The position numbers were made by a program, and so were the translations under genes. From Methylopila capsulata (GTDB taxonomy: Bacteria; Pseudomonadota; Alphaproteobacteria; Rhizobiales; Methylopilaceae): a stretch of DNA of 64,000 nt. The notes below the pieces were generated by a model. That model saw only the letters and a program-made list of their open reading frames with translations, had not been told where the DNA came from and did not search any database. Below are positions 36,296 to 64,000 of this stretch, piece by piece (position 1 is the first letter of the stretch; each line of letters begins with the position of its first letter). Location: positions 1,116,001-1,180,000 of the forward strand of contig NZ_JAFBCY010000001.1 of the NCBI RefSeq assembly GCF_016907975.1, in the 5' to 3' direction.

Positions 36296-37285
36296 ATGAC
36301 GCGCATCACGATCGCCGCCGCCTTGTCGCTCGCCGTCCTCGCGGGGACGGCCCACGCCGCGGACAACAAGATCCGCGTGCTGGCCCCGACCTGGACCGGC
36401 TACGCGCCGGTCTTCGTCGCCATCGACAAGGGCTACTTCAAGGAGCTCGGAATCGAGGTCGAGATGCGGTTCGAGGACGACCGCTCGAACGTGCTCGCCG
36501 CCATGACGCGCGGCGACGTCGAGGTCGACATGCGCACCGTCGGCGAGCACCAGGGCCGCCCGCGCGACGCCTCCACGCCGGGCGTCATCATCGGCACCAT
36601 CGACATGTCCGTCGGCGGCGACGGCGTGATCGCCGACGGCAAGATCGGCTCGGTCAAGGAGCTGAAGGGCAAGACCGTCGCGATCGAGCCCAACATCCCG
36701 GCCCGCCTGCTGCTGCAGCTCGCGCTGAAGAAGGAGGGCATGACCCTCGACGACCTGAAGATCAAGGAGATCATGACGCAGGACACCGTCGCTGTGTTCG
36801 CGGACAGCTCCATCGACGCGATCGGCACCTACGAGCCGGTGATGTCGCAGGCGATCTCCTCGCAGACCCAGCGCAACGGCAAGCTGCTGATCTCGTCCAA
36901 AGACAGCGAGATCGTCGTCGACATCATCGACGTGCGGCAGGACGACCTGAAGAAGAACCCGGTCAAGTACCAGCACTTCCTGACGGGCATCTTCAAGGCG
37001 ATCGACCTCTACAAGAGCGACCCGGCGGAGTTCATCAAGCTGGCGGCGCCGCACTACAACCTCAGCGACAAGGAGGTGAAGGAGATCTTCGACACCAGCC
37101 TCGAGTTCACCGACAAGGCGGCGACCGCAGCGATGCTCGGGACGCCCGAGAAGCCGGGCAAGCTCTACGAGATCTTCGACACGGTCATGCAGCTTAACCT
37201 CGACTACAAGTCGGCGGACGTGAAGCTCGACGCCAAGCAGCAGATCGACCCGTCGGTCATGGCCGCGATCTCCGGCGCGAAGTGA
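36296..37285 (+). CDS. ABC importer substrate-binding protein
   Basis: The 329-residue protein has a signal peptide (MTRITIAAALSLAVLAGTAHA) and the fold of NMT1/TauA-type binding proteins: NKIRVLAPTWTGYAPVFVAIDKGYFKELGIEVEMRFEDDRSNVLAAMTRGDVEVD. It has SQAISSQTQRNGKLL near the middle. The ligand is not known; the catabolic genes that follow point to a guanidino or cyclic ureide-like compound. The stop overlaps the permease start by four bases. Confidence 0.9.
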   Translation: MTRITIAAALSLAVLAGTAHAADNKIRVLAPTWTGYAPVFVAIDKGYFKELGIEVEMRFEDDRSNVLAAMTRGDVEVDMRTVGEHQGRPRDASTPGVIIGTIDMSVGGDGVIADGKIGSVKELKGKTVAIEPNIPARLLLQLALKKEGMTLDDLKIKEIMTQDTVAVFADSSIDAIGTYEPVMSQAISSQTQRNGKLLISSKDSEIVVDIIDVRQDDLKKNPVKYQHFLTGIFKAIDLYKSDPAEFIKLAAPHYNLSDKEVKEIFDTSLEFTDKAATAAMLGTPEKPGKLYEIFDTVMQLNLDYKSADVKLDAKQQIDPSVMAAISGAK

Positions 37286-38142
37286 GCGCGGTGGCGGAGA
37301 CGATCTCCCGGCCCGAGGCCGCCGCGTCCCCCGCGGCGGTCGCGCGCCCCCGGAAGCGCGCCTCCCGCGGGCTTCTGCGGCTCAGGACGCCGCTTCCGCG
37401 CGGGTGGGGCCCGGCGATCGCGGTCGGCGCCAGCGTCGCGATTGTGCTCGTCTGGGAGTTCGTCGCCCGCCTCGGGCTCACCACGCCGCTGTTCTTCCCC
37501 TCCCCAACCGCGATCCTCTCGGCCATGGGCCGGATGTTCTCGGACCAGCACCTGCTCTGGCACGCCTGGGTCTCCACGCTCCGGGTCTGGGGCGCCTTCC
37601 TGCTGGCGGCGATGCTCGCCATCCCGATCGGCGTCGCGATGAGCGGCTACCGGGTGATCGGCGCGGCGCTGGAGCCCGCGATCGACTTCATCCGCTACCT
37701 GCCGGTCCCGGCGCTGGTGCCGCTCGCGATCATCTGGTTCGGCGTCGGCGAGGAGACCAAGATCTTCCTGCTGTGGCTCGGCACCTTCTTCCAGCTGGTG
37801 CTGCTGGTGGCCGACGACATGCGCCGCGTGCCGCAGGAGTACGTCGAGATCGCCTACACCGTCGGCGCGAACCAGGGCCAGGTGCTGAAGGACGTCGCCT
37901 TCCGCGCCATGCTGCCGGGGCTCGTCGACAACCTGCGCATCACCCTCGGCTGGTGCTGGACCTACCTGATCATCGCCGAGATCGTGGCCGCGGACTCAGG
38001 GCTCGGCTTCGTGATCTGGGCGGCGCGCCGCTACATGAAGACCCCCGAAGTGATGGCCGGCGTCGTGCTCATCGGCGTCATCGGCCTCGCGACCGACCAG
38101 CTGCTGCGGCTCATCCACCGCCGCGCCTTCCGGTACCTGTGA
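37282..38142 (+). CDS. ABC importer permease
   Basis: The GTG start at 37282 overlaps the binding-protein stop. The 286-residue protein has an N-terminal Pro/Arg/Ala-rich tail, then membrane segments (WGPAIAVGASVAIVLVWEFVARL; VWGAFLLAAMLAIPIGVAMSGY; LVPLAIIWFGVGEETKIFLLWLGTFFQLVLLV; and VMAGVVLIGVIGLATDQLL). The coupling loop is VEIAYTVGANQGQVLKDVAFRAMLPG. It is the nitrate/taurine type and would pair with the next gene's ATPase. Confidence 0.9.
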   Translation: MSAVAETISRPEAAASPAAVARPRKRASRGLLRLRTPLPRGWGPAIAVGASVAIVLVWEFVARLGLTTPLFFPSPTAILSAMGRMFSDQHLLWHAWVSTLRVWGAFLLAAMLAIPIGVAMSGYRVIGAALEPAIDFIRYLPVPALVPLAIIWFGVGEETKIFLLWLGTFFQLVLLVADDMRRVPQEYVEIAYTVGANQGQVLKDVAFRAMLPGLVDNLRITLGWCWTYLIIAEIVAADSGLGFVIWAARRYMKTPEVMAGVVLIGVIGLATDQLLRLIHRRAFRYL

Positions 38143-38152
38143 GGACGCGGCC

Positions 38153-38923
38153 GTGACGCATCTCCAGTTCGACCACGTCACCAAGAGCTTCGGCGCCGTG
38201 CCGGTGGTCGAGACGCCGTTCAACCTCGCGATCGACCGGCACGAGTTCGTGGTGTTCCTCGGCCCCTCGGGCTGCGGCAAGACCACGCTGATGCGGATGA
38301 TCGGCGGGCTCGACCAGCCGACCTCCGGCGAGATCCGGCTGGAGGGAGAGCCGGTCGGCGCGCCGGACCGGCGGCGGGGCATGGTGTTCCAGTCCTACTC
38401 GTCGTTCCCCTGGCTCACCGTCACCCAGAACGTCGCGTTCGGGCTGAAGTACCGCAACGACCTGTCCGAGGACGAGAAGGCGGTGCGGGCCGAGCGCTAC
38501 CTCGACCTCGTCGGCCTCTACGAGTTCTCCGACCACTTCCCGAGCCAGGTCTCGGGCGGCATGCGCCAGCGCATCGCGATCGCCCGCACGCTCGCGGCCG
38601 GCGCTGACGTGCTGCTGATGGACGAACCCTTCGGCGCGCTCGACGCGCTCCGGCGCGAGCAGCTGCAGACCGAGCTGCGGCGCATCCAGCGGCGCGACGC
38701 CAAGACCATCGTGTTCGTCACCCACGACGTCGAGGAGGCGCTGTTCCTCGCCGACCGCGTGGTGGTGTTCTCGAAGCGCCCGACCCGGATCGTCGCCGAG
38801 ATCGACGTCCGCAGCCGGCTCGGCGAGGAGCGATCGCTGGAGATCCGCGACGGCGAGGACTTCTTCGCGCTCCGGCGCGAGACCATCGGCATGGTGCGCG
38901 CGGCGGCAGGGGGCGAGCTGTGA
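38153..38923 (+). CDS. ABC importer ATPase
   Basis: Translation starts at GTG 38153, ten bases after the permease stop. Walker A is GPSGCGKTTLMR, Q-loop VFQSYSSFPWLTV, signature VSGGMRQR, Walker B VLLMDEPFGALD and the switch His lies in FVTHDVEEAL. SSFPWLTV is typical of the Ssu/Tau branch. The 256-residue length is normal. Its stop overlaps the start of the first SDR gene. Confidence 0.92.
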   Translation: MTHLQFDHVTKSFGAVPVVETPFNLAIDRHEFVVFLGPSGCGKTTLMRMIGGLDQPTSGEIRLEGEPVGAPDRRRGMVFQSYSSFPWLTVTQNVAFGLKYRNDLSEDEKAVRAERYLDLVGLYEFSDHFPSQVSGGMRQRIAIARTLAAGADVLLMDEPFGALDALRREQLQTELRRIQRRDAKTIVFVTHDVEEALFLADRVVVFSKRPTRIVAEIDVRSRLGEERSLEIRDGEDFFALRRETIGMVRAAAGGEL

Positions 38924-39678
38924 ACCTCGAAGGACTCGCCGGGCGCACCGTCGTCGTCACCGGGTCGAGCCGCGGCATCGGGCTCGGGATCGCCCGCGCC
39001 TTCTCCGCAGCCGGCGCCGAACTGATCATGCTCGCCGACGACCCGGTGATCCATGCGGAGGCCGAGCGCCTCGGCGCCCGCGGCCATGAGGTCGACGTCA
39101 CCCGATCGGCTGAGGTCGAGGCCTTCGCCGCCGCGCTGCCGAAGCTCGACGTGCTGGTGAACAACGCGGGCTACGAGCGCCTGACGCCGCTCGACGACGC
39201 CAGCGCCGAGAACGAGGCGACCTTCCGCCGGATCCTCGAGATCAACGTCACGGGCATGTTCCTGATGACGCGGGCGCTGCTGCCGAAGCTCTCGTCCGGA
39301 GGCCGCGTCATCAACACCGCCTCGGTCTGGTCGCGCACCGCGGAAGCGGCGTTCGGCGGCTACGTCGCTTCGAAGCACGCGGTCATCGGCCTCACCAAGA
39401 CTTGGGCGAAGGAGCTCGGACCACGCGGGATCACCGTCAACGCGGTGTGCCCCGGCTGGGTGCGGACCGAGGCCTCGCTGCGCTCGCTCAAGCGGATGTC
39501 CGAGCGCTCGGGAACCGCGGAGGAGACCCTGCTCGACGGCGTCGTGGCCGCGCAGGCGTTGCCCGGCTTCATGGAGCCGGAGGACGTCGCCGGCCCCTAC
39601 CTGTTCCTCGCCTCCGACCTCGCGGCGAGCGTGACCGGGCAGAGCCTCGGCGTCGACCGGGGAGAAGCGCCGTGGTGA
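38920..39678 (+). CDS. Short-chain dehydrogenase, first of a pair
   Basis: The GTG at 38920 overlaps the ATPase stop. The 252-residue SDR has the cofactor motif TGSSRGIGLGIARAF near residue 14, NNAG near 82, Ser in NTASVWS, and YVASK as the YxxxK catalytic pair near 148. It is a classical FabG-like SDR of unknown substrate. It is directly followed by a second SDR; the two may act one after another or as a hetero-oligomer on the imported compound or its hydroxy product. Confidence 0.9.
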   Translation: MNLEGLAGRTVVVTGSSRGIGLGIARAFSAAGAELIMLADDPVIHAEAERLGARGHEVDVTRSAEVEAFAAALPKLDVLVNNAGYERLTPLDDASAENEATFRRILEINVTGMFLMTRALLPKLSSGGRVINTASVWSRTAEAAFGGYVASKHAVIGLTKTWAKELGPRGITVNAVCPGWVRTEASLRSLKRMSERSGTAEETLLDGVVAAQALPGFMEPEDVAGPYLFLASDLAASVTGQSLGVDRGEAPW

Positions 39679-40382
39679 GCGCGCACGCAGGCCTCAAAGT
39701 GGTGGTGACCGGCGCCTCGAGCGGCATCGGCCGCGCCGGCGCCCTGCGGCTGGCGGAGGCCGGGGCCAAAGTCGCCGGGATCGACCTGTCGCCCGCCGAT
39801 GCGCCGTTCCTCACGATCACCGCCGACGTCTCGGACGAGGCCGACATGATCGCCGCCATGGCCGAGGCGGCGGAGTCGCTCGGCGGGATCGACGCCGTGG
39901 TGAGCTGCGCCGGCGTCTACCGCGGCTCCAGCCTCGCCGCGTTCGACTTCGCGGCCTTCGACCGGATGGTCGCCGTGAACCTCAAGGGCATGATTCTCGC
40001 CGCGCGGGAGGCGCTGAAGCATTTCGGGCCCGAGGGCGGCAAGATCGTCAATGTGGCCTCCGAGCTCGGCTATCTCGGCCGCGCCGGCGCCTCCGGCTAC
40101 TGCGCGACCAAGGGCGCGGTGCTGGCGCTGACGCGCTCCTGGGCGCGCGAGCTCGGACCCCGCGTGCTGGTCAACGCCGTCGCGCCCGGCCCGGTCGACA
40201 CCCCGCTGCTCGACGCCGGCGCGATGTCACCGGCGGAGCTCGCGGTCGAGACCCGCAACCCGCTCAACCGCATCGGCCAGCCGCACGAGCTGACCGAGGC
40301 GATCCTGTTCCTCACCAGCCGCCACACGACGTTCATGACGGGCCAATGCGTCAGCGTCGACGGCGGCGCCGCGATGCACTGA
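39672..40382 (+). CDS. Short-chain dehydrogenase, second of a pair
   Basis: The GTG at 39672 is preceded by GGAG with a normal gap and overlaps the first SDR by seven bases. The 236-residue protein has TGASSGIGRAGALRL, a VVSCAGVYRG segment in place of NNAG, VASELGYLG and YCATKGAVL with the Tyr and Lys of the active site. It ends MTGQCVSVDGGAAM, typical of FabG-like SDRs. It differs clearly from its neighbour, so this is not a recent duplication. Confidence 0.9.
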   Translation: MVSAHAGLKVVVTGASSGIGRAGALRLAEAGAKVAGIDLSPADAPFLTITADVSDEADMIAAMAEAAESLGGIDAVVSCAGVYRGSSLAAFDFAAFDRMVAVNLKGMILAAREALKHFGPEGGKIVNVASELGYLGRAGASGYCATKGAVLALTRSWARELGPRVLVNAVAPGPVDTPLLDAGAMSPAELAVETRNPLNRIGQPHELTEAILFLTSRHTTFMTGQCVSVDGGAAMH

Positions 40383-40395
40383 AGGGCCGCCCCGC

Positions 40396-41169
40396 ATGGT
40401 CGACAGCGTTTTCATGTCCGAGCTGAGCTGGCCGGAGTTCGAGGCCAAGATCGCGGCCGGCGCGCCCGTGTTCCTGCCCCTGGGGGCGACCGAGCAGCAC
40501 GGGCCGCACCTGCCGCTCGGCGTCGACGTGGCGCTGCCGACCGGCGTGTGCGAGCGGGTCGCGCGCGCGGTCGGCGGGCTCGTCGCCCCGACGATCCCCT
40601 ACGGCTACAAGTCGATGCCGCGCTCGGGCGGCGGCGAGCTGTTTCCCGGAACGGTCAGCCTCGACGCCAACACCTTCTCCCTTGTGGTGCGCGACGTGAT
40701 CCGCGGCCTCGGCCATCACGGCGTCCGCCGCATCGTGCTGGTGGTCGGACACTTCGAGAACGCCTGGCCCTCGGTCGAGGGCCTCGACCTCGGCCTGCGC
40801 GAGCTTCGCCGCGACGGGATCGCCGACATGCAGGCGATGCGCTTCGAGTACTGGGATTTCGTGCGGCGCGAGACGCTCGACCGGCTGTTCCCGGACGGCT
40901 TCCCCGGCACCGAGCTGGAGCACGCCAGCCTGCTCGAGACCTCGCTGATGATGCTGCTGCGCCCGGAGCTGGTCGAGATCGACAAGGCGCCGACCGACGG
41001 CCCGGCGAACTTCCCGACCTACGACCGTTTTCCCGTGCCGGAGGGCTTCGTCCCGGCATCTGGCGTGCTTGCGGTCGCGCAGGGGTCCACGGCCGAGAAG
41101 GGCCAGTGGCTGATGGACGACCACGTCGCCCTGATCTCCGCCGCCGTCCGCAAGGAATTCGGCCTCTGA
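40396..41169 (+). CDS. Creatininase-family amidohydrolase
   Basis: The 257-residue protein aligns along its length with Pseudomonas putida creatininase, as I recall that sequence. Metal ligands are E33, H35 and D44 in GATEQHGPHLPLGVD, H119 and E121 in VGHFENAW, and the GGG-x-x-FPGT block at 78-85 is kept. W153 in YWDF matches the active-site Trp154. The second active-site Trp (174 of P. putida) is replaced by Thr (T172 in PGTELEHASLLETS), so the substrate may not be creatinine itself. Creatininase opens creatinine to creatine. It sits 14 bases from the SDR and 16 from a ureohydrolase. Confidence 0.85.
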   Translation: MVDSVFMSELSWPEFEAKIAAGAPVFLPLGATEQHGPHLPLGVDVALPTGVCERVARAVGGLVAPTIPYGYKSMPRSGGGELFPGTVSLDANTFSLVVRDVIRGLGHHGVRRIVLVVGHFENAWPSVEGLDLGLRELRRDGIADMQAMRFEYWDFVRRETLDRLFPDGFPGTELEHASLLETSLMMLLRPELVEIDKAPTDGPANFPTYDRFPVPEGFVPASGVLAVAQGSTAEKGQWLMDDHVALISAAVRKEFGL

Positions 41170-41185
41170 GCCGGGAGCGAGGCCG

Positions 41186-42154
41186 ATGACGGACCCGACG
41201 CCCGCGGCTCCCTGGCCGCAGCCGCTCGACACCAGCGTGACGCCGCGCTTCGCCGGCCTGCCGACCTTCATGCGCCTGCCGGTGATGGACCCCGCCGACG
41301 TCGACGTCGCGCTGATCGGCGTGCCGTTCGACGGCGGCGTGACCAACCGGGCGGGCACGCGCCACGGCCCGCGCGAGCTGCGCAACCAGTCGAGCCTGGT
41401 GCGGCGGCACCACCACGTCACGGGCCGCTCGCCCTACGACCTCGTCCGCGTCGCGGACTGCGGCGACTGCCCGACCCATCCTCTCGACCTGATGGAGAGC
41501 CTGCGCCTGATCGAGGCGCACTACGCCGGCGTGGCCAAGACCGGGGCGATCCCGATCACCGGCGGCGGCGACCACCTCGTCACGCTGCCGATCCTGCGCG
41601 GGCTGTCGAAGGGCGCGGCGGTGGGGCTGATCCAGTTCGACGCCCACTCCGACACCTACGACAGCTTCTTCGGCCAGAAGTACAACCACGGCACGCCGTT
41701 CCGCCGGGCGATCGAGGAAGGCCTCGTCGACCCCCGGCGCATGGTGCAGATCGGCCTGCGCGGCTCGGTCGCCGATCCCGCGAGCTTCGACTTCGCGAGG
41801 GCCGCGGGCGTCCGAATGATATTCATCGAGGAGTTTGTCGCGCGCGGCGTCGACGACGTGATGGACGAGGCCCGCGCCATCCTCGGCGACGGGCCGACCT
41901 ACGTCAGCTTCGACATCGACGCCATCGACCCCTCGCAGGCGCCCGGGACCGGCACGCCGGAGATCGGGGGGCTCTCGACCCGCGAGGCGCAGGCCCTGGT
42001 GCGGCGGCTCGCCGGGCTCGACGTGGTCGGCGCGGACCTCGTCGAGGTGGCGCCGCCGTTCGACCCCTCCGGCCTCACCGCCATGACCGGCGCGACTGTC
42101 ATGTTCGAGCTGCTCTGCGTGGTGGCGGACAGCCTCGCGGCGCGCGGGGGCTGA
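41186..42154 (+). CDS. Ureohydrolase (agmatinase/arginase family), first
   Basis: The 322-residue protein keeps the di-metal site: H130 in TGGGDHLVTLP, D152, H154 and D156 in FDAHSDTYD, D243 and D245 in SFDIDAIDPSQAPGTGTPE. The Glu that contacts the guanidinium in arginase corresponds to E267 in GGLSTRE. VTNRAGTRHGPRELR near 53-67 is typical of agmatinase-like proteins. It hydrolyses a guanidino compound to urea and an amine; agmatine, guanidinobutyrate, guanidine or creatine are options. Directly behind a creatininase-like gene, creatine is an attractive substrate but this is inference. Confidence 0.85.
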   Translation: MTDPTPAAPWPQPLDTSVTPRFAGLPTFMRLPVMDPADVDVALIGVPFDGGVTNRAGTRHGPRELRNQSSLVRRHHHVTGRSPYDLVRVADCGDCPTHPLDLMESLRLIEAHYAGVAKTGAIPITGGGDHLVTLPILRGLSKGAAVGLIQFDAHSDTYDSFFGQKYNHGTPFRRAIEEGLVDPRRMVQIGLRGSVADPASFDFARAAGVRMIFIEEFVARGVDDVMDEARAILGDGPTYVSFDIDAIDPSQAPGTGTPEIGGLSTREAQALVRRLAGLDVVGADLVEVAPPFDPSGLTAMTGATVMFELLCVVADSLAARGG

Positions 42155-42196
42155 GAGGACGCGTTGGGCAGTGTTGACGCTGCGAATCCCGCCGTC

Positions 42197-42256
42197 GTTC
42201 CGGGTATGTCCCGGAACGGATCACCCCGCCGGCTCAGAACCATCGCGAACGGCGGG
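42197..42256. repeat. Two hairpins between the ureohydrolase genes
   Basis: GTTCCGGG (42197-42204) pairs with CCCGGAAC (42210-42217), and CCCGCCG (42225-42231) with CGGCGGG (42250-42256). They lie in the 189-base gap between the two ureohydrolase genes and may weaken read-through or stabilise the upstream mRNA. The sequence resembles other TCCCGG-rich repeats in the window. Confidence 0.6.
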
Positions 42257-42343
42257 ATGATGGGCCCCGGCGCTCCGGCCGGGCGACGACGAGCTTGAAA
42301 AGGGCGGGTAACGCCTGAACTCGAACGACAAGGACACTCCGCC

Positions 42344-43297
42344 ATGGCACATGGCTACGACGCCGGACGGCTCGACCTGCCCTTCGTGGGCGTCGCGACC
42401 TTCGGAAAATACCCGCTCTGCCTCGACTGGGACCGGCTGGACGCGGACGTCGCCATCCTCGGCGCGCCGTTCGACCTCGGCACGCAGTGGCGCTCGGGGG
42501 CGCGGTCGGGCCCGCGGGCGATCCGCGAGGCCTCGACCCTGTTCGCCTTCGGCCACGCCGGCGCCTACGACCACGAGGACGACGTCGTCTACCTGCCGGC
42601 GGGCCAGGCGCGCATCGTCGACGTCGGCGACGCCGACATGATCCACACCGACACGCTGCAGAGCCACGCCAACATCGAGGCGGCGGTGCGCAAAATCCTT
42701 AAACGCGGCGCGCTGCCGGTGACGCTCGGCGGCGACCACTCCGTCAACATCCCCTGCATCGCGGCGTTCTCGGACGAGGAGCCGATCCACCTCATCCAGT
42801 TCGACGCCCATCTCGACTTCGTCGACGAGCGCCACGGCGTCCGCTACGGCCACGGCAACCCGATGCGGCGCGCGGCGGAGCGGGCTTACGTCACCGGCCT
42901 CACGCAGCTCGGCATCCGCAACGTCTCCTCTACCGCCCGCGAGGGCTACGAGGACGCGCGGGCGATGGGCTCCGACATCCTCTCGGTCCGCCAGATCCGC
43001 AAGCTCGGCGTGGACGCTGTGCTGGAGCGCATCCCGGCAGGCAAGCGCTACTACCTGACGATCGACATCGACGGCTTCGACCCCTCCATCGCGCCCGGCA
43101 CCGGCACGCCGAGCCACGGCGGCTTCACCTATTACGAGGTGCTGGAGCTGCTCGACGGGATCACCAGGCGCGGAACGGTGGTCGGCGTCGACCTCGTCGA
43201 GGTCGCGCGCGAGTACGACCCCGCGGGCGTCACCTCGATCCTCGCGGCGCAGGTGCTGCTGAACCTGATTGGCCGCGTCCTGCACAACCGGGCATAA
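42344..43297 (+). CDS. Ureohydrolase (agmatinase/arginase family), second
   Basis: The 317-residue protein also keeps the full metal set: H132 in LGGDHSVNIP, D154, H156 and D158 in FDAHLDFVD, D241 and D243 in TIDIDGFDPSIAPGTGTP. Where agmatinases read TPExGG it reads TPSHGGF, with E265 in FTYYE as guanidinium contact. The two ureohydrolases differ widely from each other. Both look active. They may act on different intermediates or form one mixed complex, as metformin hydrolase does with its two ureohydrolase subunits. The gene lies after a repeat-bearing gap and may have its own promoter. Confidence 0.85.
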   Translation: MAHGYDAGRLDLPFVGVATFGKYPLCLDWDRLDADVAILGAPFDLGTQWRSGARSGPRAIREASTLFAFGHAGAYDHEDDVVYLPAGQARIVDVGDADMIHTDTLQSHANIEAAVRKILKRGALPVTLGGDHSVNIPCIAAFSDEEPIHLIQFDAHLDFVDERHGVRYGHGNPMRRAAERAYVTGLTQLGIRNVSSTAREGYEDARAMGSDILSVRQIRKLGVDAVLERIPAGKRYYLTIDIDGFDPSIAPGTGTPSHGGFTYYEVLELLDGITRRGTVVGVDLVEVAREYDPAGVTSILAAQVLLNLIGRVLHNRA

Positions 43298-43329
43298 CGG
43301 CCCAGTCCTTCACGGACGATTGCGCCCCC

Positions 43330-54884: not shown

Positions 54885-54909
54885 AGACGGCGCGCCCGTA
54901 ACGCGTCGC

Positions 54910-55136: not shown

Positions 55137-55370
55137 TCAGGCGATCTTCCTGACCGCTCCGGCGTCGACGCCGAAGCCCGCGAGCTCGTCGGCGGAGAGC
55201 GGCAGCAGGGGCGCGCTGGGCACGGCGCGGCCGTAGGGAATCGCTTTCCGGGCGGCCTCGCGGTCGGCGATCGCCGCCACGTAGGAGCCCGCGACGCGCT
55301 GGTCGCCCTTCAGGTTGACGACGGGGATCGTCAGTTTCCAGCCGGCGGCGGGCTGGGGCGATTGGGTCAT
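55137..55370 (-). CDS. Small conserved hypothetical protein
   Basis: The 77-residue protein starts MTQSPQPAAGWKLTIPVVNLKGDQRVAGSYVAAI after a GAGGAG site. It has DREAARKAIPYG and a C-terminal LPLSADELAGFGVDAGAVRKIA, a helix pair typical of small DUF1127-like or regulator proteins in this order, but not that family. No signal peptide. The function is unknown. It lies divergent from the two-component genes at 55526. Confidence 0.65.
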   Translation of the reverse strand: MTQSPQPAAGWKLTIPVVNLKGDQRVAGSYVAAIADREAARKAIPYGRAVPSAPLLPLSADELAGFGVDAGAVRKIA

Positions 55371-55525
55371 GGCGGCGCTCCTCGTCTTGTGATCTTGGCG
55401 CGATGCAAGCGGAGCGGGACGCTGGCGTCAATCGCGGTTCGCCCGGTCGACGCGCTCCCGGCCGCCCGTCATGATGCGCGCGCGGTCCGCCGCCCGACTC
55501 CCCTTACCTGGAGCCTGACCGGCCG

Positions 55526-57112
55526 ATGACCGTGCGTTGGCGTATCTTCGTGTTCGAGATCGTGACCCTCGCCTTCGTGGCGCTGATGGTCGGGGTGACC
55601 GCGCTGTCGCTCAGGGTGGCGGACGATTTCGTGCGCCGCATCGACGGCGTCCACCACCGCTTCGAGGTGATCGCCGAGCTCGACGGCCACGCCAACAACT
55701 ACGCCGAGCAGATCGCCGAGGTGCTGCTGCTCGGGCCGGAGCAGATGCCGGACTTCGAGGCCGCGCGCCGCAAGATGGAGGAGGCGTTCGAGCGCCTCGC
55801 CCGCGTCACGCGGGCCGAGGTGCTGACGCTCGACGGGGTCGAGGAGGTGCGGCGCGAGATCTCGGACGTCGAGATGACGAGCCGCATGAACGAGCTCTAC
55901 CGCGCGATCGACCGCGCGGCCGAGCATGTCTTCGCCCTTCAGCGCGACGGCAAGCAGGCCGAGGCGGTCGGGCATTTCCGACGCGAGGTCGAGTACCGGC
56001 TGTCGAACGACTTCGAGACGCTGCTCGAGAACGCGCTGAAGGACGAGCGCGGCGAGGTCGCGAGCGAGCTCGCCGAGGTGCGCCGGCGCCAGCAGTGGCT
56101 GCTCTTCGGCGCGATCGCGCTGACGCTGCTCGCCGTCCTGTTCAGCGCCGGCTTCGGACTGATGCTGAAGCGCTCGATCGTGCGCCCGGTGCAGGATCTC
56201 GCCGAAGGCGCCAGGGCGATCGCGGACGGCGCGCTCGACGCCCGCATCCCCGTGCGCGGCCGCGACGAGTTCGCGGCGCTCGCCCGCACCTTCAACGACA
56301 TGGCGCATGCGATCGAGGGCCAACGGGCGGAGCTCGTCACCGCGCAGCAGCGGCTGCACTCCGAGGTCGAGGCCCGCACCGCCGAACTGCGCCACGCCAA
56401 CGACCGCCTGAGGGACGTGGACGCGCGGCGGGCGCAGTTCCTGGCGGACGTCAGCCACGAACTTCGGACGCCGCTGACGATCCTGCGCGGCGAGGCGGAC
56501 GTCGCGCTGCGCGGGCGCGGCGACCCGGGCGACCAGGCGGAGGCGCTGTCCCGCATCCAGGAGCAGGCCGAAAGCCTCGGCTCACTGCTCGACGACCTGC
56601 TGGCCTTCGCCCGGTCCGACGCGGAAGACCAGAGCTTCGAGATCACTGTCACGCGCGGCCGCGACGTCGCAGCCGCCGCGGCCGCCGAGGGCGAAGCGCT
56701 CGCCGCCCCGCGCGACGTCCTGATCGAGACCGCCTGGAACGACGGCGGCGCGCTGATCGCGGCCGACGCGCGACGGCTGAAGCAGGTCTTCCTGATCGGC
56801 CTCGACAACGCGATAAAGCACTCGCCGGCCGGCGGACGAGTCCGCGTCGCGACGCTCGTCGCCGACGGACGGTTCGTGGTCGAGGTCTCGGACGAGGGGC
56901 CGGGCCTGTCGGAAGAGGATCGCGCGCACGTGTTCAGCCGTTTCTATCGGGGCCGCGCGGCCGACAGCGGCTCGACCGGCGGCCTCGGCATCGGTCTCGC
57001 GATCGCAAAGCTCATCGTCGAGCGGCACGACGGCGCGATCACGCTCGACAACAGGCCTTCGGGCGGCGCGGCGCTGACCGTGTCGCTGCCGCCGGCGGAG
57101 GCGGGATCGTGA
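55526..57112 (+). CDS. Sensor histidine kinase
   Basis: The 528-residue protein has membrane segments at about 8-28 and 191-213, an extracytoplasmic helical sensor between them (RFEVIAELDGHANNYAEQIAEVLLLG), a HAMP linker (RSIVRPVQDLAEGARAIADGALDARIPVRGRDEFAALARTFN), and the kinase core with H311 in DVSHELRTPLTIL, then LDNAIKHSP, DEGPGLSEED and GGLGIGLAIAKLI. The stimulus is unknown. Its stop overlaps the regulator's GTG by four bases, so the pair is co-translated. Confidence 0.94.
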   Translation: MTVRWRIFVFEIVTLAFVALMVGVTALSLRVADDFVRRIDGVHHRFEVIAELDGHANNYAEQIAEVLLLGPEQMPDFEAARRKMEEAFERLARVTRAEVLTLDGVEEVRREISDVEMTSRMNELYRAIDRAAEHVFALQRDGKQAEAVGHFRREVEYRLSNDFETLLENALKDERGEVASELAEVRRRQQWLLFGAIALTLLAVLFSAGFGLMLKRSIVRPVQDLAEGARAIADGALDARIPVRGRDEFAALARTFNDMAHAIEGQRAELVTAQQRLHSEVEARTAELRHANDRLRDVDARRAQFLADVSHELRTPLTILRGEADVALRGRGDPGDQAEALSRIQEQAESLGSLLDDLLAFARSDAEDQSFEITVTRGRDVAAAAAAEGEALAAPRDVLIETAWNDGGALIAADARRLKQVFLIGLDNAIKHSPAGGRVRVATLVADGRFVVEVSDEGPGLSEEDRAHVFSRFYRGRAADSGSTGGLGIGLAIAKLIVERHDGAITLDNRPSGGAALTVSLPPAEAGS

Positions 57113-57795
57113 AGATCCTGGTGGTGGAGGACGACCGCCGGATCGCCGATTTTCTGAGCCGCGGCCTGACCTCGGAGGGCTATCAGGTGACCGTCGCCCC
57201 GGACGGCCGCGACGGGCTGGAGCGCATCCGCTCGGGCGAGTTCGAACTGGTGATCCTCGACCGCATGCTGCCCTACGTCGACGGGCTCGAGGTCTGCCGG
57301 CTGGTGCGGCAGGAGCGGCTGACGGCGCTGATCCTGATGCTCACCGCCAAGGACGGGCTGCAGGACAAGATCGAGGGCCTCAAGGGCGGGGCGGACGACT
57401 ACCTCACCAAGCCGTTCTCGTTCGACGAGCTGCTGGCGCGGCTCGAGGCGCTGAAACGCCGCCGGCCGGCGGAGGACACCCAGGCGACGCTCGCGGTCGG
57501 GCCGCTCACCCTCGACCCCGAGTCCCGTCGCGTGACCTGCCGCGGCCGGGAGATCTCGCTGACCGTGCGCGAGTTCGAGCTGCTGCGGTTCCTGATGGCG
57601 AACGCCGAGCGCGTCGTCAGCCGGCAGAGGCTGCTGAACAACGTCTGGGACTACACCTTCGACCCCGGCACCAAGGTGGTCGACGTCTACATCCGCTATC
57701 TCAGGAAAAAACTCGAGGACGACGGCCCTCCGTTCATCATCCAGACGGTTCGCGGCGTCGGTTACAAGATCTCGGGCCGAGACGTCGTGTCGTGA
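57109..57795 (+). CDS. OmpR/PhoB-family response regulator
   Basis: The GTG at 57109 gives 228 residues. The receiver has D8/D9, D51 (phosphorylation site, ILDRMLP) and K101 in LTKPF. The winged-helix output domain (about 127-222) ends RRVTCRGREISLTVREFELLRFLMANAERVVSRQRLLNNVW and YIRYLRKKLEDDG. It is the partner of the kinase just upstream. Targets are not evident; the RTX gene 135 bases downstream is one candidate. Confidence 0.95.
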   Translation: MKILVVEDDRRIADFLSRGLTSEGYQVTVAPDGRDGLERIRSGEFELVILDRMLPYVDGLEVCRLVRQERLTALILMLTAKDGLQDKIEGLKGGADDYLTKPFSFDELLARLEALKRRRPAEDTQATLAVGPLTLDPESRRVTCRGREISLTVREFELLRFLMANAERVVSRQRLLNNVWDYTFDPGTKVVDVYIRYLRKKLEDDGPPFIIQTVRGVGYKISGRDVVS

Positions 57796-57930
57796 TGCTT
57801 CGCCTCGTTTTCGCCGTCGCTCTCTCTCCAAATTCTAACCGACCGCTCAACGTGGTCTAACTGAGCCCGCTTAAGTTCAGCTCCAGAAGGCCGGGCGGCG
57901 CGCCCGCCCGCATCATGTGGAGCTGATGAG

Positions 57931-58623
57931 ATGGCGACGATCAACGGAACGGCCGGCGCGGACCGCCTCGTGGGAACCGGCGCGGCCGACGTGCTGCGCG
58001 GCTACGCCGGCCAGGACAAGCTATTCGGCCAGGCGGGCGCGGACACGCTGTTCGGCGGCGACCAGAACGACGACCTCTTCGGCGGCGACGGCGACGATCG
58101 GCTCTACGGCGAGAACGGCGACGACGACCTTGAGGGCGGCGCGGGCGACGACCGGCTCGTGGGCGGCGCCGGCAATGACGATCTCGAAGGCGGGCTGGGG
58201 AACGACACGCTCTACGGCGGCGCCGGCAACGACGAGATCGACGGCGGCGACGGCGACGACCGGCTGATCGGAGACGCGGGCAACGATGAGCTCGACGGCG
58301 GAAACGGCCGCGACGTGCTGTTCGGCGGCGTCGGCAACGACGAACTCGACGGCGGCAAGGGCGTGGACGTGCTGAGCGGCGGCGCGGGCGCCGACATCTT
58401 CGTGTTCGAGACCGGCGACGGCAAGGACCGCATCACCGACTTCCAGGACGGGACCGACAAGATCGAGCTCGACGTCGACGGCCTCGGGTTCAACGACCTG
58501 ATCATCCGCTCGAACGCGGCGGGCGACGCCGTGATCACCTGGGCCGGCAACACCGGCTCCTCGATCACGCTCGACGACGTGTCGGTGGCGAACCTCGGCG
58601 CGAACGACTTCATCTTCGACTGA
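57931..58623 (+). CDS. RTX (calcium-binding) protein
   Basis: The 230-residue protein consists mostly of about a dozen GGxGxDxUx nonapeptide repeats (for example GGDGDDRLYGENGDDDLEGG) that fold into a calcium-filled beta-roll. The last 75 residues (ADIFVFETGDGKDRITDFQDGTDKIELDV, ending NDFIFD) are the usual C-terminal module and type I secretion signal. It has no N-terminal signal. No catalytic domain is present, so it may be a surface or matrix protein. No type I export genes are near. Confidence 0.9.
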   Translation: MATINGTAGADRLVGTGAADVLRGYAGQDKLFGQAGADTLFGGDQNDDLFGGDGDDRLYGENGDDDLEGGAGDDRLVGGAGNDDLEGGLGNDTLYGGAGNDEIDGGDGDDRLIGDAGNDELDGGNGRDVLFGGVGNDELDGGKGVDVLSGGAGADIFVFETGDGKDRITDFQDGTDKIELDVDGLGFNDLIIRSNAAGDAVITWAGNTGSSITLDDVSVANLGANDFIFD

Positions 58624-58630
58624 GGCCGCC

Positions 58631-59596
58631 TCAGGCGATCTGAACGAACCGCGCCATCTCGGGCGCGACCTCGGCGAGCCGCGCGCGCAGACCTGCGCGG
58701 CTCGCCTCCGCGAGCTCCGCCGGCAGCCGGCCGAGTTCGTGCGCATAGGCGACGAGCGTAAGGCTGCGGGCGAACTCGGGACCGGGCAGCGCGGCGCAGA
58801 CCACCGCCCCCGGCGGCGGAGCGGCCTCGACCACGCAGAGCGGCGTGACGACGGCGAAGCGGCCGCCCTCCGCCACCATCGCCGCCACCCCCTGAGGCGT
58901 GTCGAACGACAGCCGCCGCGGCGGCTCCAGGCCGATCCGGCGCAGGTGACGCTCGATCTCGACGCCGGTGCTCGAGCGCGCGCTGAACCGCACCAGCTCG
59001 AAGCGCTCGGCCAGGCCCCTCAGGTCCTCCATGGTCTCGACGGCGGGACCGCCCGGCGGCAGCATCAGCACGTAGGACTCGGTCAGGATCGGCCGGCGCT
59101 CGAGCCCGGCGACCTGCGCGAGATCGTCGACGCCGATCATCACGTCGAGGTTGCGCGACAGCAGGGCGCTGGCATGCGACGCCGTGAGCCCCGACAGGAT
59201 CGCCACCTCGTCCGCCCGCTGGGCGATCGCGTCCGCGAGCGTCGGCCCGAGCGTGCGCGACAGCGAGTCGACGAGGCCGAGCCGCACCAGCGGAAACCGC
59301 GCCCTCCCCGCCTCCCGCAGCATCGGCGCGATCTGGCGCGCTTCGGAGACCAGCGCCGAGGCGCGCTGGCGCAGCAGGACGCCTGCGGGCGTCAGCGCGA
59401 TCGGACGGATCGCCCGGTCGAACAAGCCGGCCCCGATCCGCGTCTCGAGCTCCGCCACCGCGAGCGACACCGCCGGCTGCGTGAGGCCCAGACGCCGCGC
59501 CGCCGCCGCCATCGAGCCGGCGTCGCAGACGGCGAGGAAGATCGTGAGCTGCCGGAGATCGAAGGGAAGGTCGTCGGGACGGGGCTGCATGGCCAA
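58631..59596 (-). CDS. LysR-family regulator
   Basis: The 321-residue protein has a LysR head (LPFDLRQLTIFLAVCDAGSMAAAARRLGLTQPAVSLAVAELETRIGAGLFDR). The effector domain runs from about 100 to 300. It is divergent from soxB, with 91 bases between starts, and probably controls the sarcosine oxidase genes. The inducer would be sarcosine or an upstream compound. Confidence 0.92.
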   Translation of the reverse strand: MAMQPRPDDLPFDLRQLTIFLAVCDAGSMAAAARRLGLTQPAVSLAVAELETRIGAGLFDRAIRPIALTPAGVLLRQRASALVSEARQIAPMLREAGRARFPLVRLGLVDSLSRTLGPTLADAIAQRADEVAILSGLTASHASALLSRNLDVMIGVDDLAQVAGLERRPILTESYVLMLPPGGPAVETMEDLRGLAERFELVRFSARSSTGVEIERHLRRIGLEPPRRLSFDTPQGVAAMVAEGGRFAVVTPLCVVEAAPPPGAVVCAALPGPEFARSLTLVAYAHELGRLPAELAEASRAGLRARLAEVAPEMARFVQIA

Positions 59597-59687
59597 GCTC
59601 GCACTATAAGTCCGATTTATATCTCATAGCGCGCGGCCGTCGGCCATAGTGCGGCTCGTCCTGCTTCGCCATCACCCAGGCGCGCTC

Positions 59688-60947
59688 ATGTCGACCGACC
59701 GGTACTCGATCTTTTCCGTGCTTCGCGAGGCGCTTCGCGGCCACACCGGCTGGAAGCCGGCTTGGCGCGAGCCCGAGCCGAAGGCGGCCTACGACATCGT
59801 CATCGTCGGCGGCGGCGGCCACGGGCTCGCGACCGCTCACTACCTCGCCAAGGTCCACGGCCTCACCAACATCGCGGTGGTCGAGAAGGGCTGGATCGGC
59901 GGCGGCAATGTCGGCCGCAACACCACGATCGTCCGCTCGAACTACCTGCTGCCGGGCAACGCGCCGTTCTACGAACACTCGATGAAGCTCTGGGAGGAGC
60001 TTGAGCAGGACCTGAACTACAACGCGATGGTGAGCCAGCGCGGCGTGGTGAACCTGTTCCACTCCGACGGCCAGCGCGACGCCTACGCCCGCCGCGGCAA
60101 CGCCATGCGGCTGCACGGGATCGACTCCGAGCTGCTCGACGTGCCCGAGCTCAAGCGCATCCTGCCGATGCTCGACTACGACAACGCGCGCTTTCCCGTG
60201 AAAGGCGCGCTTCGCCAGAAGCGCGGCGGCACGGTGCGCCACGACGCGGTGGCCTGGGGCTACGCCCGGGCCGCGGACGGACGCGGCGTCGACATCATCC
60301 AGAACTGCGAGGTCACCGGCTTCCGCATCGAGGCCGGCCGCGTGGTCGGGCTCGAGACCTCGCGTGGCTTCATCGGCGCGAAGAAGGTCGGGCTCGCCTG
60401 CGCCGGCAACTCCTCGCGCGTGGCCGGGATGGCGGGCCTGCGCCTGCCGATCGAGAGCCACGTGCTGCAGGCCTTCGTGTCGGAAGGGATCAAACCTTTC
60501 ATCGACACGGTCTGCACCTTCGGCGCCGGGCACTTCTACATCTCGCAGTCCGACAAGGGCGGCCTGGTCTTCGGCGGCGACATCGACGGCTACAACTCCT
60601 ACGCCAGCCGCGGAAACCTGCCGACCATCGAGGACGTGGCCGAGGGCGGCATGGCGCTGATGCCCGCGATCGGCCGCGTGAAGCTTCTCCGGCACTGGGG
60701 CGGCATCATGGACATGTCGATGGACGGTTCGCCGATCATCGACCGCACGCCGATCGAGGGCCTCTACCTCAACGCCGGCTGGTGCTACGGCGGCTTCAAG
60801 GCGACGCCCGCCTCCGGCTGGAGCTTCGCGCACCTGATCGCGACCGACACGCCGCACGAGACCGCGACCGCCTACCGGCTCGACCGCTTCGCGACCGGCC
60901 GCGTTATCGACGAAAAGGGCGTCGGCGCCCAGCCGAACCTGCACTGA
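59688..60947 (+). CDS. soxB: Sarcosine oxidase subunit beta
   Basis: The frame opens at 59649, but MSTDRYSIFSVLREALRGHTGWKP at 59688 is the known family start and gives 419 residues. The FAD motif is DIVIVGGGGHGLATAHYLAKVHG near 37; VEKGWIGGGNVGRNTTIVRSNYL and the GWCYGGFKATPASGW end are diagnostic of heterotetrameric sarcosine oxidase. The beta subunit oxidises sarcosine, passing electrons to FMN and then oxygen. A repeat of 150 bases separates it from soxD. Confidence 0.96.
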   Translation: MSTDRYSIFSVLREALRGHTGWKPAWREPEPKAAYDIVIVGGGGHGLATAHYLAKVHGLTNIAVVEKGWIGGGNVGRNTTIVRSNYLLPGNAPFYEHSMKLWEELEQDLNYNAMVSQRGVVNLFHSDGQRDAYARRGNAMRLHGIDSELLDVPELKRILPMLDYDNARFPVKGALRQKRGGTVRHDAVAWGYARAADGRGVDIIQNCEVTGFRIEAGRVVGLETSRGFIGAKKVGLACAGNSSRVAGMAGLRLPIESHVLQAFVSEGIKPFIDTVCTFGAGHFYISQSDKGGLVFGGDIDGYNSYASRGNLPTIEDVAEGGMALMPAIGRVKLLRHWGGIMDMSMDGSPIIDRTPIEGLYLNAGWCYGGFKATPASGWSFAHLIATDTPHETATAYRLDRFATGRVIDEKGVGAQPNLH

Positions 60948-60972
60948 GGCCGAAGCGATGAAGACGATCACC

Positions 60973-61083
60973 CGTCATCCCGGCCGGAGCGGCGCAGCCG
61001 CGCAGAGCCGGGATCGTCAGGCGCGCAAGACGCCCCTCCTGAAAACGATCCCGGCTCTCCGCTTCGCTGCGGCCGGGATGACG
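60973..61083. repeat. Nested inverted repeat between soxB and soxD
   Basis: CGTCATCCCGGCCG (60973-60986) pairs with 61070-61083, and inside it AGAGCCGGGATCGT (61004-61017) pairs with 61045-61058. Both arms match perfectly. It shares the CATCCCGG/TCCCGG type with other repeats here and splits an otherwise compact operon, so it may modulate expression of soxD and soxA. Confidence 0.8.
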
Positions 61084-61099
61084 CTGGAGCCCTGATCCC

Positions 61100-61387
61100 A
61101 TGCGCATCCCCTGCCCCTATTGCGGCGTCCGCGGCGTGGACGAGTTCTCCTACCTCGGCGACGCCACGCTGGTCCGGCCCGACGCCTCCGTGCCGAACGC
61201 CGAGGCCGCCTTCGCCGACTACGTCTATCTGCGCGACAACCCCGCCGGCCGGCACCGCGAGCTGTGGCAGCACGCGGTCGGGTGCCAGTCCTGGCTTGTG
61301 GTGACCCGCGACACCCGCACCCATGCGATCGAGCAGGTCGAAGCCGCCCGCGACATCGCGGCGGCGCGCGCTTCGGGAGCCGAATGA
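61100..61387 (+). CDS. soxD: Sarcosine oxidase subunit delta
   Basis: The 95-residue protein has the zinc-binding residues of SoxD: the CPYCG pair at the N-terminus (IPCPYCGVRGVDEFSYLGDA) and the later His and Cys in WQHAVGCQSWLVVTRDTRTH. Normal family length. The delta subunit is needed to assemble the tetramer. Its stop overlaps the soxA start by four bases (ATGA). Confidence 0.95.
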   Translation: MRIPCPYCGVRGVDEFSYLGDATLVRPDASVPNAEAAFADYVYLRDNPAGRHRELWQHAVGCQSWLVVTRDTRTHAIEQVEAARDIAAARASGAE

Positions 61388-64000
61388 TGAGCCAGCCGAA
61401 CCGCCTCGCCTCCGGCGGCCTGATCGACCGCGCGACGCCGCTCGCCTTCACCTTTGACGGCCGCGGCTACACCGGCCATCCCGGCGACACGCTGGCCTCC
61501 GCCCTGCTCGCGAACGGCGTGACCCTCGTCGGGCGCTCGTTCAAGTACCACCGCCCGCGCGGCATCCTGACCGCTGGCTCCGAGGAGCCGAACGCGCTGG
61601 TGGAGCTCCGAACCGGCGCGCGGCGCGAGCCGAACGTCAAGGCGACGGTCGCCGAGCTCTACGACGGGCTGGAGGCGCGGAGCCAGAACCGGTTTCCGTC
61701 GCTTAGCTTCGACCTGCTGGCGGTGAACCAGCTCGCCTCGCCAGTGTTCGTGGCGGGCTTCTACTACAAGACCTTCATGTGGCCGGCGAAGCTTTGGGAG
61801 AAGCTCTACGAGCCGCTGATCCGCCGCGCCGCGGGCCTCGGCCGCGCGGCGGAGGCCGCGGATCCCGACGCTTATGAGAAGACCACGGCGCACTGCGACG
61901 TGCTGGTGATCGGCGGCGGTCCCGCCGGCCTCTCCGCGGCGCTCGCCGCCGGCCGCGCCGGGGCGCGGGTGATCCTGGCCGACGACGACTCCGTGCTGGG
62001 CGGACGGCTGCTGTCCGATCGCCTCGCCGTCGGCGAGGGCAGCGCGGCGCAATGGGCGGCTTCCGCCGCGGCCGAACTCGCCAGCCTTCCCGACGTCACC
62101 GTGCTGACGCGCGCCTCCGTGGTCGGCGCCTACGACGGCGGCGTCTACGGCGCCCTGGAGCGTGTGTCCGACCACCGCGCGACGCCGTTGCCGCACCAGC
62201 CGCGCCAGCGGTTCTGGCGCATCGTCGCCAAGCGCTGCGTTCTCGCGGCCGGCGCGCTGGAGCGACCGATCCCGTTCGGGAACAACGACACGCCCGGCGT
62301 GATGCTCGCCGGCGCCGTGCGCAGCTACCTCAACCGCTTCGGCGTCGCGCCGGGCAAGCGCGCGGTCGTCTACGCCAACAACGACGACGCCGCGAAGACC
62401 GTGCTGGACCTCACAGCAGCTGGCTGCGAGATCGCCGCCGTGGTCGACGCCAGCGGCGACGCGCCCGCGCTCGCCGCCGCCGCCCGCTCCGCCGGCGCGC
62501 CGCTGATCTTCGGCGGCGCGGTCGTGCGCGCCTATGGCGGCCAGTCGGTGAAGGGCTGCGCGATCGCGGATTCCCGCGGCCGCAGCTTCAACGTCGCCTG
62601 CGACCTCGTCGCCGTGTCCGGCGGCTGGAACCCGTCGATCCAGATCGCGACCCACCTTGGCGGCAGGCCCGTCTGGGACTCGCCGCGCTCGGCTTTCCTG
62701 CCGGGCTCCCCCCCTCCCGGCATGGACGTGGCCGGCGCCGCCTCCGGCGCGTTCGAGCTGGCGGAGGCCTTCGCCGAAGGCGGTCGCCTCGGAACCGAAG
62801 CCGCGCAGGAGTGCGGCTACACGGCGGCGCCGTTCGACGCGCCGCAGACCGAGCCCGAGACCGACGCCGTCCATGGCCACGGGCCGTGGAAGCCGAAGAC
62901 GTCGCGCGGCAAGGCCTTCGTCGACTTCCAGAACGACGTGACGGTGAAGGACGTGGAGCTCGCCGCGCGCGAAGGCTTCAAGTCGGTCGAGCACCTCAAG
63001 CGCTACACCACGCTCGGCATGGCGACCGACCAGGGCAAGACCGCGAACGTGGTGGGCCTCGCGCTGATGGCGGAGATCACCGGCCGTTCGATCCCGGACA
63101 CGGGCACCACGCTGACGCGGCCGCCCTTCACGCCGGTCGCGATCGGCGCGCTCGGCGGCGCGCACCGCCACAAGGAGTTCCGCCCCACCCGCCTGCCGCC
63201 CTCGCACTTCTGGGCCGAGGAGCAGGGCGCGGCCTTCGTCGAGACCGGGCTTTGGATGCGCGCGGCGTACTTCCCGCGCGCCGGAGAAGCCGACTGGCTC
63301 GAGACCACCATCCGCGAGGTCAATACCGTCCGGACCGCCGTCGGCGTCTACGACGCCTCGACGCTGGGCAAGATCGACGTGCAGGGCGCGGACGCCGGCG
63401 TCTTCCTGGACCGCGTCTACATCAACGGCTTCTCGACCATGCCGGTGGGCAAGGCGCGCTACGGCGTGATGCTGCGCGAGGACGGCTTCGCCATGGACGA
63501 CGGCACCGTCGCGAGGCTGAGCCCGACGCATTACTACGTGACGACCTCGACGGCGCACGCGGCGCAGGCCATGCGGCATCTCGAATACTGCCGCCAGTGG
63601 CTGTGGCCGGAGCTCGACGTCCACCTCGCCTCGATCACCGACCAGTGGGCGAAGTACGCCATTGCCGGTCCCCGCTCGCGCGACGTGGTGACGGCGCTGG
63701 TCGACGACGCCGACGTGTCGGACGCCGGCCTGCCCTACCTCGGCGTCAAGGAGGTCACCGTCGGCGGCGGTGTGAAGGCGCGGCTGTTCCGGCTCTCGTT
63801 CTCGGGGGAGATGGCCTATGAGCTCGCGGTCCCCGCCCGCTACGGCGACGCGACCATCCGCGCGATCATCGCAGCCGGCGAGCCCTTCGGCATCTGCCCC
63901 TACGGCGCCGAGGCGCTTGCGGTCATGCGCATCGAGAAGGGCCACGCGGCCGCAGCCGAACTGAACGGCACGACCACGGCGTTCGACCTCGGTCTCGGCG
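61384..64000 (+). CDS. soxA: Sarcosine oxidase subunit alpha, partial
   Basis: The frame is open from ATG 61384 to the right edge, 872 codons of a protein that is usually near 990. The N-terminal part has a 2Fe-2S-ferredoxin-like domain (GHPGDTLASALLANGVTLVGRSFKYHRPRGILTAGSEE), then the NAD/FAD-type domain with VIGGGPAGLSAALAAGRAGARVI near 175, and a C-terminal GcvT-like domain (YDASTLGKIDVQGADAGVFLDRVYINGFSTMPVGKARYGVMLREDGF) that binds tetrahydrofolate and forms methylene-THF from the N-methyl group. soxG and folate genes are expected just beyond the window. Confidence 0.96.
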   Translation, partial: MMSQPNRLASGGLIDRATPLAFTFDGRGYTGHPGDTLASALLANGVTLVGRSFKYHRPRGILTAGSEEPNALVELRTGARREPNVKATVAELYDGLEARSQNRFPSLSFDLLAVNQLASPVFVAGFYYKTFMWPAKLWEKLYEPLIRRAAGLGRAAEAADPDAYEKTTAHCDVLVIGGGPAGLSAALAAGRAGARVILADDDSVLGGRLLSDRLAVGEGSAAQWAASAAAELASLPDVTVLTRASVVGAYDGGVYGALERVSDHRATPLPHQPRQRFWRIVAKRCVLAAGALERPIPFGNNDTPGVMLAGAVRSYLNRFGVAPGKRAVVYANNDDAAKTVLDLTAAGCEIAAVVDASGDAPALAAAARSAGAPLIFGGAVVRAYGGQSVKGCAIADSRGRSFNVACDLVAVSGGWNPSIQIATHLGGRPVWDSPRSAFLPGSPPPGMDVAGAASGAFELAEAFAEGGRLGTEAAQECGYTAAPFDAPQTEPETDAVHGHGPWKPKTSRGKAFVDFQNDVTVKDVELAAREGFKSVEHLKRYTTLGMATDQGKTANVVGLALMAEITGRSIPDTGTTLTRPPFTPVAIGALGGAHRHKEFRPTRLPPSHFWAEEQGAAFVETGLWMRAAYFPRAGEADWLETTIREVNTVRTAVGVYDASTLGKIDVQGADAGVFLDRVYINGFSTMPVGKARYGVMLREDGFAMDDGTVARLSPTHYYVTTSTAHAAQAMRHLEYCRQWLWPELDVHLASITDQWAKYAIAGPRSRDVVTALVDDADVSDAGLPYLGVKEVTVGGGVKARLFRLSFSGEMAYELAVPARYGDATIRAIIAAGEPFGICPYGAEALAVMRIEKGHAAAAELNGTTTAFDLGLG

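Follow-up and report, generated by a model that had tools for sequence, protein, structure and literature searches.

Between positions 36296 and 43297 of a 64,000-nucleotide stretch of the Methylopila capsulata genome (contig NZ_JAFBCY010000001.1, positions 1,116,001 to 1,180,000; referred to here as the window), eight forward-strand genes encode the binding protein, permease and ATPase of an ATP-binding cassette (ABC) importer, two short-chain dehydrogenases/reductases (SDR1 and SDR2), a creatininase homologue (CRN) and two ureohydrolases (UH1 and UH2). We put at about even the chance that this operon serves to import and degrade a guanidine, other than creatinine, that is cyclic or cyclises spontaneously. 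The gene order is conserved among relatives, the enzymes retain their catalytic residues, a search of the genome found no creatinase, and UH1 falls in the guanidinopropionase clade; judged by this kinship, the pathway compound most likely ends in 3-guanidinopropionate.

Gene layout and recurrence of the operon

Together with its divergent regulator gene, the operon occupies window positions 35213–43297:

35213–36157, reverse strand: LysR regulator, a conserved operon partner, divergent from the operon (family profile match)
36296–37285, forward strand: NMT1/SsuA-like periplasmic binding protein of the importer (family profile match)
37282–38142, forward strand: ABC permease (profile match; 4-nucleotide overlap with the binding protein gene)
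38153–38923, forward strand: ABC ATPase (profile match)
38920–39678, forward strand: SDR1, predicted NAD(P)-dependent dehydrogenase (TGxxxGxG and S-x12-Y-x3-K motifs; 4-nucleotide overlap with the ATPase gene)
39675–40382, forward strand: SDR2, second predicted dehydrogenase (TGxxxGxG and S-x12-Y-x3-K motifs; 4-nucleotide overlap with SDR1)
40396–41169, forward strand: CRN, creatininase homologue (all metal ligands kept; Thr at the Trp174 position)
41186–42154, forward strand: UH1, ureohydrolase of the 3-guanidinopropionase clade (62.6% identity to GpuA; metal ligands complete; Phe for Tyr157)
42344–43297, forward strand: UH2, second ureohydrolase (metal ligands complete; detachable from the operon in relatives)

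From the binding protein gene through UH1 the intergenic gaps measure −4 to 16 nucleotides, three of them being 4-nucleotide overlaps, and 189 nucleotides separate UH1 from UH2; promoter and terminator scans gave no signal above that of shuffled sequences. The open reading frames and their profile matches bear out the original prediction, made from the sequence alone, which had placed a close creatininase homologue at 40396–41169 with an importer and two SDRs before it and two ureohydrolases after it. The closest solved relative of SDR1 is D-3-hydroxybutyrate dehydrogenase, and SDR2 has no solved relative at E ≤ 1e-35.

A survey of 297 genomes of the order identified 27 with a creatininase above the TIGR04448 cut-off. 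Around the creatininases of the order, 31 loci from 26 genomes besides that of the window (each spanning about 20 kb if the contig was long enough) were compared with 20 control loci, the best creatininase-family matches below that cut-off in the same order; UH1, UH2 and a third ureohydrolase served as detection queries. An arginase-family gene lies within about 10 kb in 18 of the 31 creatininase loci and in none of the 20 controls. The predicted coupling of a creatininase with a ureohydrolase is thus supported as a recurrent unit; the choice of creatinine and creatine as the substrates was not supported.

The order importer–SDR1–SDR2–CRN–UH1 recurs in Methylopilaceae, Mesorhizobium, Jiella and Acetobacter, and a rearranged order, UH1–CRN–SDR1–SDR2–importer, is found in the Rhodospirillaceae locus L088. 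Because the same order recurs across several genera, it is not due to chance. Among 28 operon loci, the window counted, that hold SDR1 and SDR2 (at least 45% identity) together with CRN, a LysR gene of 54–97% identity accompanies 24 of the 27 outside the window. A wider scan of genome contigs gave 585 matches, and among the best 80 the operon is present in Hansschlegelia, Jiella, Acetobacter, Mesorhizobium and others; the closest named genome among these 80 is Methylopila sp. Yamaguchi, with a CRN 97% identical. No description of this operon appeared among the papers listed by the literature searches, which covered a collection without most subscription journals.

UH1, UH2, CRN and the search for a creatinase

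Both ureohydrolases match PF00491 (UH1, 307 bits; UH2, 274 bits) and keep all six metal ligands, and UH1 also has the guanidinium-holding Glu; the roles of these residues are presumed to be those of their arginase counterparts. UH1 is 62.6% identical to the Pseudomonas aeruginosa guanidinopropionase GpuA (PDB 3nip) and 47.9% identical to the guanidinobutyrase GbuA. In the ureohydrolase tree GpuA is nested within a 32-row UH1 clade (support 89/94), where its sister is the operon UH1 of L088 (76% identity, support 98/97). The specificity loop around GpuA Tyr157 (23 columns) is identical in the operon UH1s of four Mesorhizobium loci (L080, L083, L084 and L085) and in L046, and differs by a single residue in L088. 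Tyr157, reportedly an important residue of this loop, is kept in the operon UH1s of Mesorhizobium, Acetobacter and Rhodospirillaceae, whereas the window UH1 and its close kin have Phe at this position and a loop one residue shorter. The gene context differs as well, window UH1 being grouped with CRN, two SDRs and an ABC importer and Pseudomonas gpuA presumably standing in a simpler one (gpuPAR).

UH2 has D. radiodurans agmatinase as its closest match in the PDB (192 bits). In L073 its gene has the opposite orientation, and in L086 a second LysR gene precedes it, so UH2 is probably an add-on. Paired ureohydrolase genes side by side are also known for the tandem heteromeric metformin and dimethylguanidine hydrolases MefH and DmgH, in which one subunit is reportedly degenerate and metal ligands are complete in only one (PMC11399263). 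UH1 and UH2 match the metformin hydrolase chains weakly (93 bits or less), and a MefH-like heteromer of the two was rejected, both having full metal sites.

CRN scores 354.1 bits against TIGR04448 ‘creatininase’ (cut-off 235) and 268.5 bits against P. putida creatininase (PDB 1j2t), with which it is identical at Glu34, His36, Asp45, His120, Glu122, Trp154, His178 and Glu183; all of these but Trp154 (positions taken from 1j2t) are assumed here to be metal or catalytic residues. In the same numbering, CRN has Phe at the Tyr121 position and Thr at that of Trp174, a residue that we take to have a role in binding creatinine; a literature search of the same coverage found nothing on creatininase Trp174, and one solved creatininase chain, 3a6e, has Phe there. 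In a tree of 85 CRN rows (83 distinct, a few genomes being present twice because two collections were used; L112 was left out as too short), the window CRN falls in a 31-row clade of which 28 have the SDR pair. Trp174 is absent in all 36 rows with the SDR pair and present in all nine with an M24 creatinase within 9 kb; L112, outside the tree, likewise keeps Trp174 and has an adjacent creatinase. Rows lacking the SDR pair divide into 35 with Trp at position 174 and 14 without. Creatinine is probably a poor guess for the CRN substrate, and creatininase-named genes in this type of operon may well not serve creatinine, so that creatinine breakdown is probably over-annotated; residue 174 together with the SDR pair offers a fast means to separate the creatininase groups.

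The classical creatinine pathway comprises creatininase, an M24 creatinase and sarcosine oxidase. In the window genome (8 contigs, rated 100% complete), a profile search of the whole genome found no M24 creatinase; it returned one Creatinase_N match (a frame of 627 residues) and two M24 matches (frames of 525 and 627 residues). The creatinase query, the neighbour of the creatininase in another genome (L057), scores 839 bits against the solved creatine amidinohydrolase 7yto and 588 against 1chm, and its best match in the window genome is 27% over 141 residues, so an M24 creatinase, earlier noted as absent from the window, was not detected elsewhere in the genome either. The same query was run against 31 genomes, the 27 with a creatininase above the TIGR04448 cut-off and four others of the same genus, and has a match of at least 58% identity in six (G129, G155, G144, G264, G038 and G262). 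None of the six is among the 12 genomes with SDR1–SDR2–CRN–UH1 (G000, G269, G058, G252, G215, G142, G170, G111, G050, G027, G086 and G077). Within 9 kb of CRN in the 85 tree rows, a ureohydrolase is found in 37, a creatinase in nine and both in none; over the whole-locus range L046 alone has both, its M24 match lying about 8 kb past CRN and being 25% identical to the creatinase query.

The window operon thus resembles the classical pathway in its creatininase-family enzyme with all metal ligands, in the urea that would be expected and in the sox genes of its genome, and differs from it in the loss of Trp174, in an SDR pair and a ureohydrolase where no M24 creatinase was detected, and in the lack of sox linkage among its relatives. 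Creatinine breakdown does not need an SDR pair, yet the pair belongs to the conserved unit.

A candidate pathway and its alternatives

In the proposed scheme, the ABC importer would take up the candidate guanidine compound, and SDR1 and SDR2 would oxidise it, for example from alcohol to aldehyde and then from cyclic hemiaminal to lactam, giving a creatinine-like cyclic acylguanidine. CRN would hydrolyse the ring amide to a guanidino acid, which UH1 would cleave; this acid is most likely 3-guanidinopropionate or a close analogue, and the products would be beta-alanine, or its analogue, and urea. Urea would be consumed by urease, and UH2 would be a second, separable ureohydrolase whose substrate the scheme leaves unnamed. 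The window genome has three urease alpha subunits above the family cut-off (G000:C4:44218, C2:30378 and C3:346852), and urea can therefore probably be used. The operon would then be a candidate bacterial source pathway for 3-guanidinopropionate. Streptidine, methylglyoxal–arginine adducts, pterins and flavin products came up as substrates in purely theoretical consideration and were set aside, as evidence for them was lacking.

Several points weigh against this scheme. Every reaction in it, and the substrate, is derived from kinship, and the SDR substrates are assumed. TIGR04448 (NCBIfam) names CRN a creatininase equivalog, well above the cut-off. The link between the loss of Trp174 and the SDR pair is based on few evolutionary events, with some genomes duplicated: on the tree the SDR label changes five times and Trp174 three times, and a sign test on independent tree pairs is not significant, the events being too few. 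Owing to the change of Tyr157 to Phe and the shorter loop, the substrate of window UH1 may differ from 3-guanidinopropionate. Finally, among 25 genomes of the order whose UH1 is at least about 60% identical (about 8 kb inspected on each side where the contig allowed; in L208 gene calling missed UH1 itself), UH1 adjoins CRN in 13 and does not in 12, of which only L205 has the SDR pair; with 12 of 25 away from CRN, UH1 alone is no proof of the pathway and is not exclusive to it.

The original prediction had CRN convert creatinine to creatine and UH1, UH2 or both cleave creatine to sarcosine and urea, with SoxBDA finishing the route and the SDRs as bystanders. This we regard as rather unlikely. 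The TIGR04448 score, the undetected creatinase and the mutual exclusion of creatinase and ureohydrolase within 9 kb of CRN (0 of 85 rows; in the whole locus, L046 with its 25% identical M24 match) all favour it, and a ureohydrolase of another branch cleaves the disubstituted dimethylguanidine (PMC11399263). Thr in place of Trp174, the guanidinopropionase kinship of UH1 and the conserved SDR pair stand against it, as does human AGMAT, a relative of GbuA and GpuA, which showed no hydrolysis of creatine or guanidinoacetate at 10 mM (PMC9772407). The sox genes, found as predicted about 16 kb from the CRN and ureohydrolase genes, at first sight speak for the creatinine route:

59688–64000, forward strand: soxB-soxD-soxA, with SoxA running past the window end (TIGR01373, TIGR01374 and TIGR01372 matches)
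59688–60947, forward strand: SoxB (TIGR01373)
61100–61387, forward strand: SoxD (TIGR01374, 104.3 bits, under the cut-off of 116.5)
from 61384, forward strand, cut by the window end: SoxA (TIGR01372)

SoxA or SoxB above 40% identity occurs, however, in none of the 27 other operon loci within about 10 kb (the fetched stretch); on the same count the window's own stretch is 30396–51169, and its sox genes lie outside. SoxB instead accompanies creatininase and creatinase in L099, L100 and L112, and two of these loci, L099 and L112, also have SoxA at 37–39% identity. By this linkage soxBDA is probably not part of the operon system, in keeping with the prediction's own caution that these genes may be unrelated and contrary to the finishing role it had given them. 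The window also encodes a small RTX-repeat-like protein (57931–58623), flanked by a two-component system on one side and the sox genes on the other.

Two further alternatives involve the variants found in relatives. CRN might open the ring of glycocyamidine or of a different five-ring analogue of creatinine, N-demethylated or substituted, with UH1 guanidinoacetase-like and a Rieske enzyme of the relatives acting as demethylase. A Rieske oxygenase gene directly follows CRN in L038, L039, L041 and L044 (two named by Pfam), in the first three, from genomes of the window's genus, standing between CRN and UH1; glycine betaine and carnitine monooxygenases are among its best matches, the latter being nearest in the PDB to the L041 protein. 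No Rieske gene lies within the window operon, and human AGMAT did not cleave guanidinoacetate (PMC9772407), which leaves this reading improbable. The alternative that CRN and the ureohydrolases are not sequential is unlikely too; here CRN would act on an amide or lactam that the SDRs produce and that is not a guanidine, and UH1 and UH2 on guanidino acids or agmatine, all being merely co-regulated. It would account for the 12 of 25 genomes whose close UH1 gene does not adjoin CRN and for the Pseudomonas and Burkholderiales versions (L087, L089, L092, L131 and L095), in which a membrane enzyme of the fatty-acid desaturase type accompanies SDR1, SDR2, an EamA transporter, CRN and an isochorismatase. 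Four of these five versions also have a lactonase-like protein, and no ureohydrolase was detected in their vicinity. The alternative sits poorly with L046, L060 and L062, where CRN and a ureohydrolase are paired without SDRs and with other importers, and with L088, where UH1 directly precedes CRN. The substrate first proposed was probably wrong, and a guanidinopropionate-type route for a candidate cyclic guanidine probably fits the sequences better.

Variant loci in relatives

In the preferred reading of a route through an oxidised cyclic guanidine, the Rieske oxygenase after CRN in relatives fits an oxidative upper pathway. The gene encodes 400 residues and, in close relatives, separates CRN from UH1; the idea that it was the missing creatinase was rejected once its product was recognised as a Rieske oxygenase. 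A DDAH-like gene directly follows CRN in L054; by homology, it and the isochorismatase of the Pseudomonas versions are other guanidine or ureido cleavers after CRN.

The operon of L205 (LysR–importer–SDR1–SDR2–UH1) has no CRN, and UH1 is followed by a protein resembling PuuE-type allantoinase, which has a polysaccharide deacetylase fold. Since it stands in an operon without CRN, this PuuE-like protein may open the ring in L205. The three PuuE-like proteins tested differ from PuuE proper, scoring 80–97 bits against a PuuE cut-off of 425. Matches at E ≤ 1e-70 occur in 37 of the 297 genomes and not in the window genome; at least 8 of the 37 (G247, G010, G155, G040, G080, G064, G262 and G181) have the gene no more than about 7 kb from one of UH1 type. 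A ring-opening step with urea release after it therefore seems a recurring theme, and the operon a testable example of a ring-opening enzyme swapped for an unrelated one. A general oxidise–open–cleave pathway for cyclic guanidines is possible, though we hold it only tentatively: NAD(P)-linked SDRs would produce a cyclic acylguanidine, a creatininase-fold enzyme whose substrate site is altered (in at least one other genome a PuuE-like opener) would open it, and a guanidinopropionase-type ureohydrolase would release urea and a beta-amino acid, with optional Rieske or membrane desaturase-type oxygenases widening the range of entry substrates.

Three CRN–ureohydrolase loci without SDRs (L046, L060 and L062) have other importers and Trp at position 174. 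Two of them (L060:4705–10416 and L062:9712–15393) comprise a UH1-like gene, a PotABCD-type importer and a creatininase with Trp154 and Trp174, and their genomes hold no creatinase above about 31% identity. By these residues, the three loci are better candidates than the window for creatinine use through a ureohydrolase.

In the Pseudomonas-type operon L089:5503–14735, the isochorismatase is biuret-hydrolase-like and the lactonase pyridoxolactonase-like, and importer parts are also present; we know of no described pathway for it. One protein family (X249/X267) occurs alongside several SDR–CRN loci (L077:8529–9278, L089:12206–13009 and L039:5727–6494). Its L077 and L089 members have no Pfam match, and for the AlphaFold model of the L077 member (mean predicted local distance difference test score of 81) only yeast YLR301w is similar at E ≤ 0.001, which gives no functional hint.

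Two other groups of creatininase loci stand apart from the operon. In L043, L052, L056, L061, L097 and L113 the creatininase is accompanied by a cytidine-deaminase-like protein and a TRZ/ATZ amidohydrolase, with a cytosine deaminase in four of the six; this group probably represents a different nitrogen heterocycle pathway. In L045, L046, L048, L055 and L069 a creatininase and a PuuE-like gene occur with a sugar-type ABC importer whose binding protein, as tested in L045, is of the Bmp family; four of these five loci also have a ureohydrolase.

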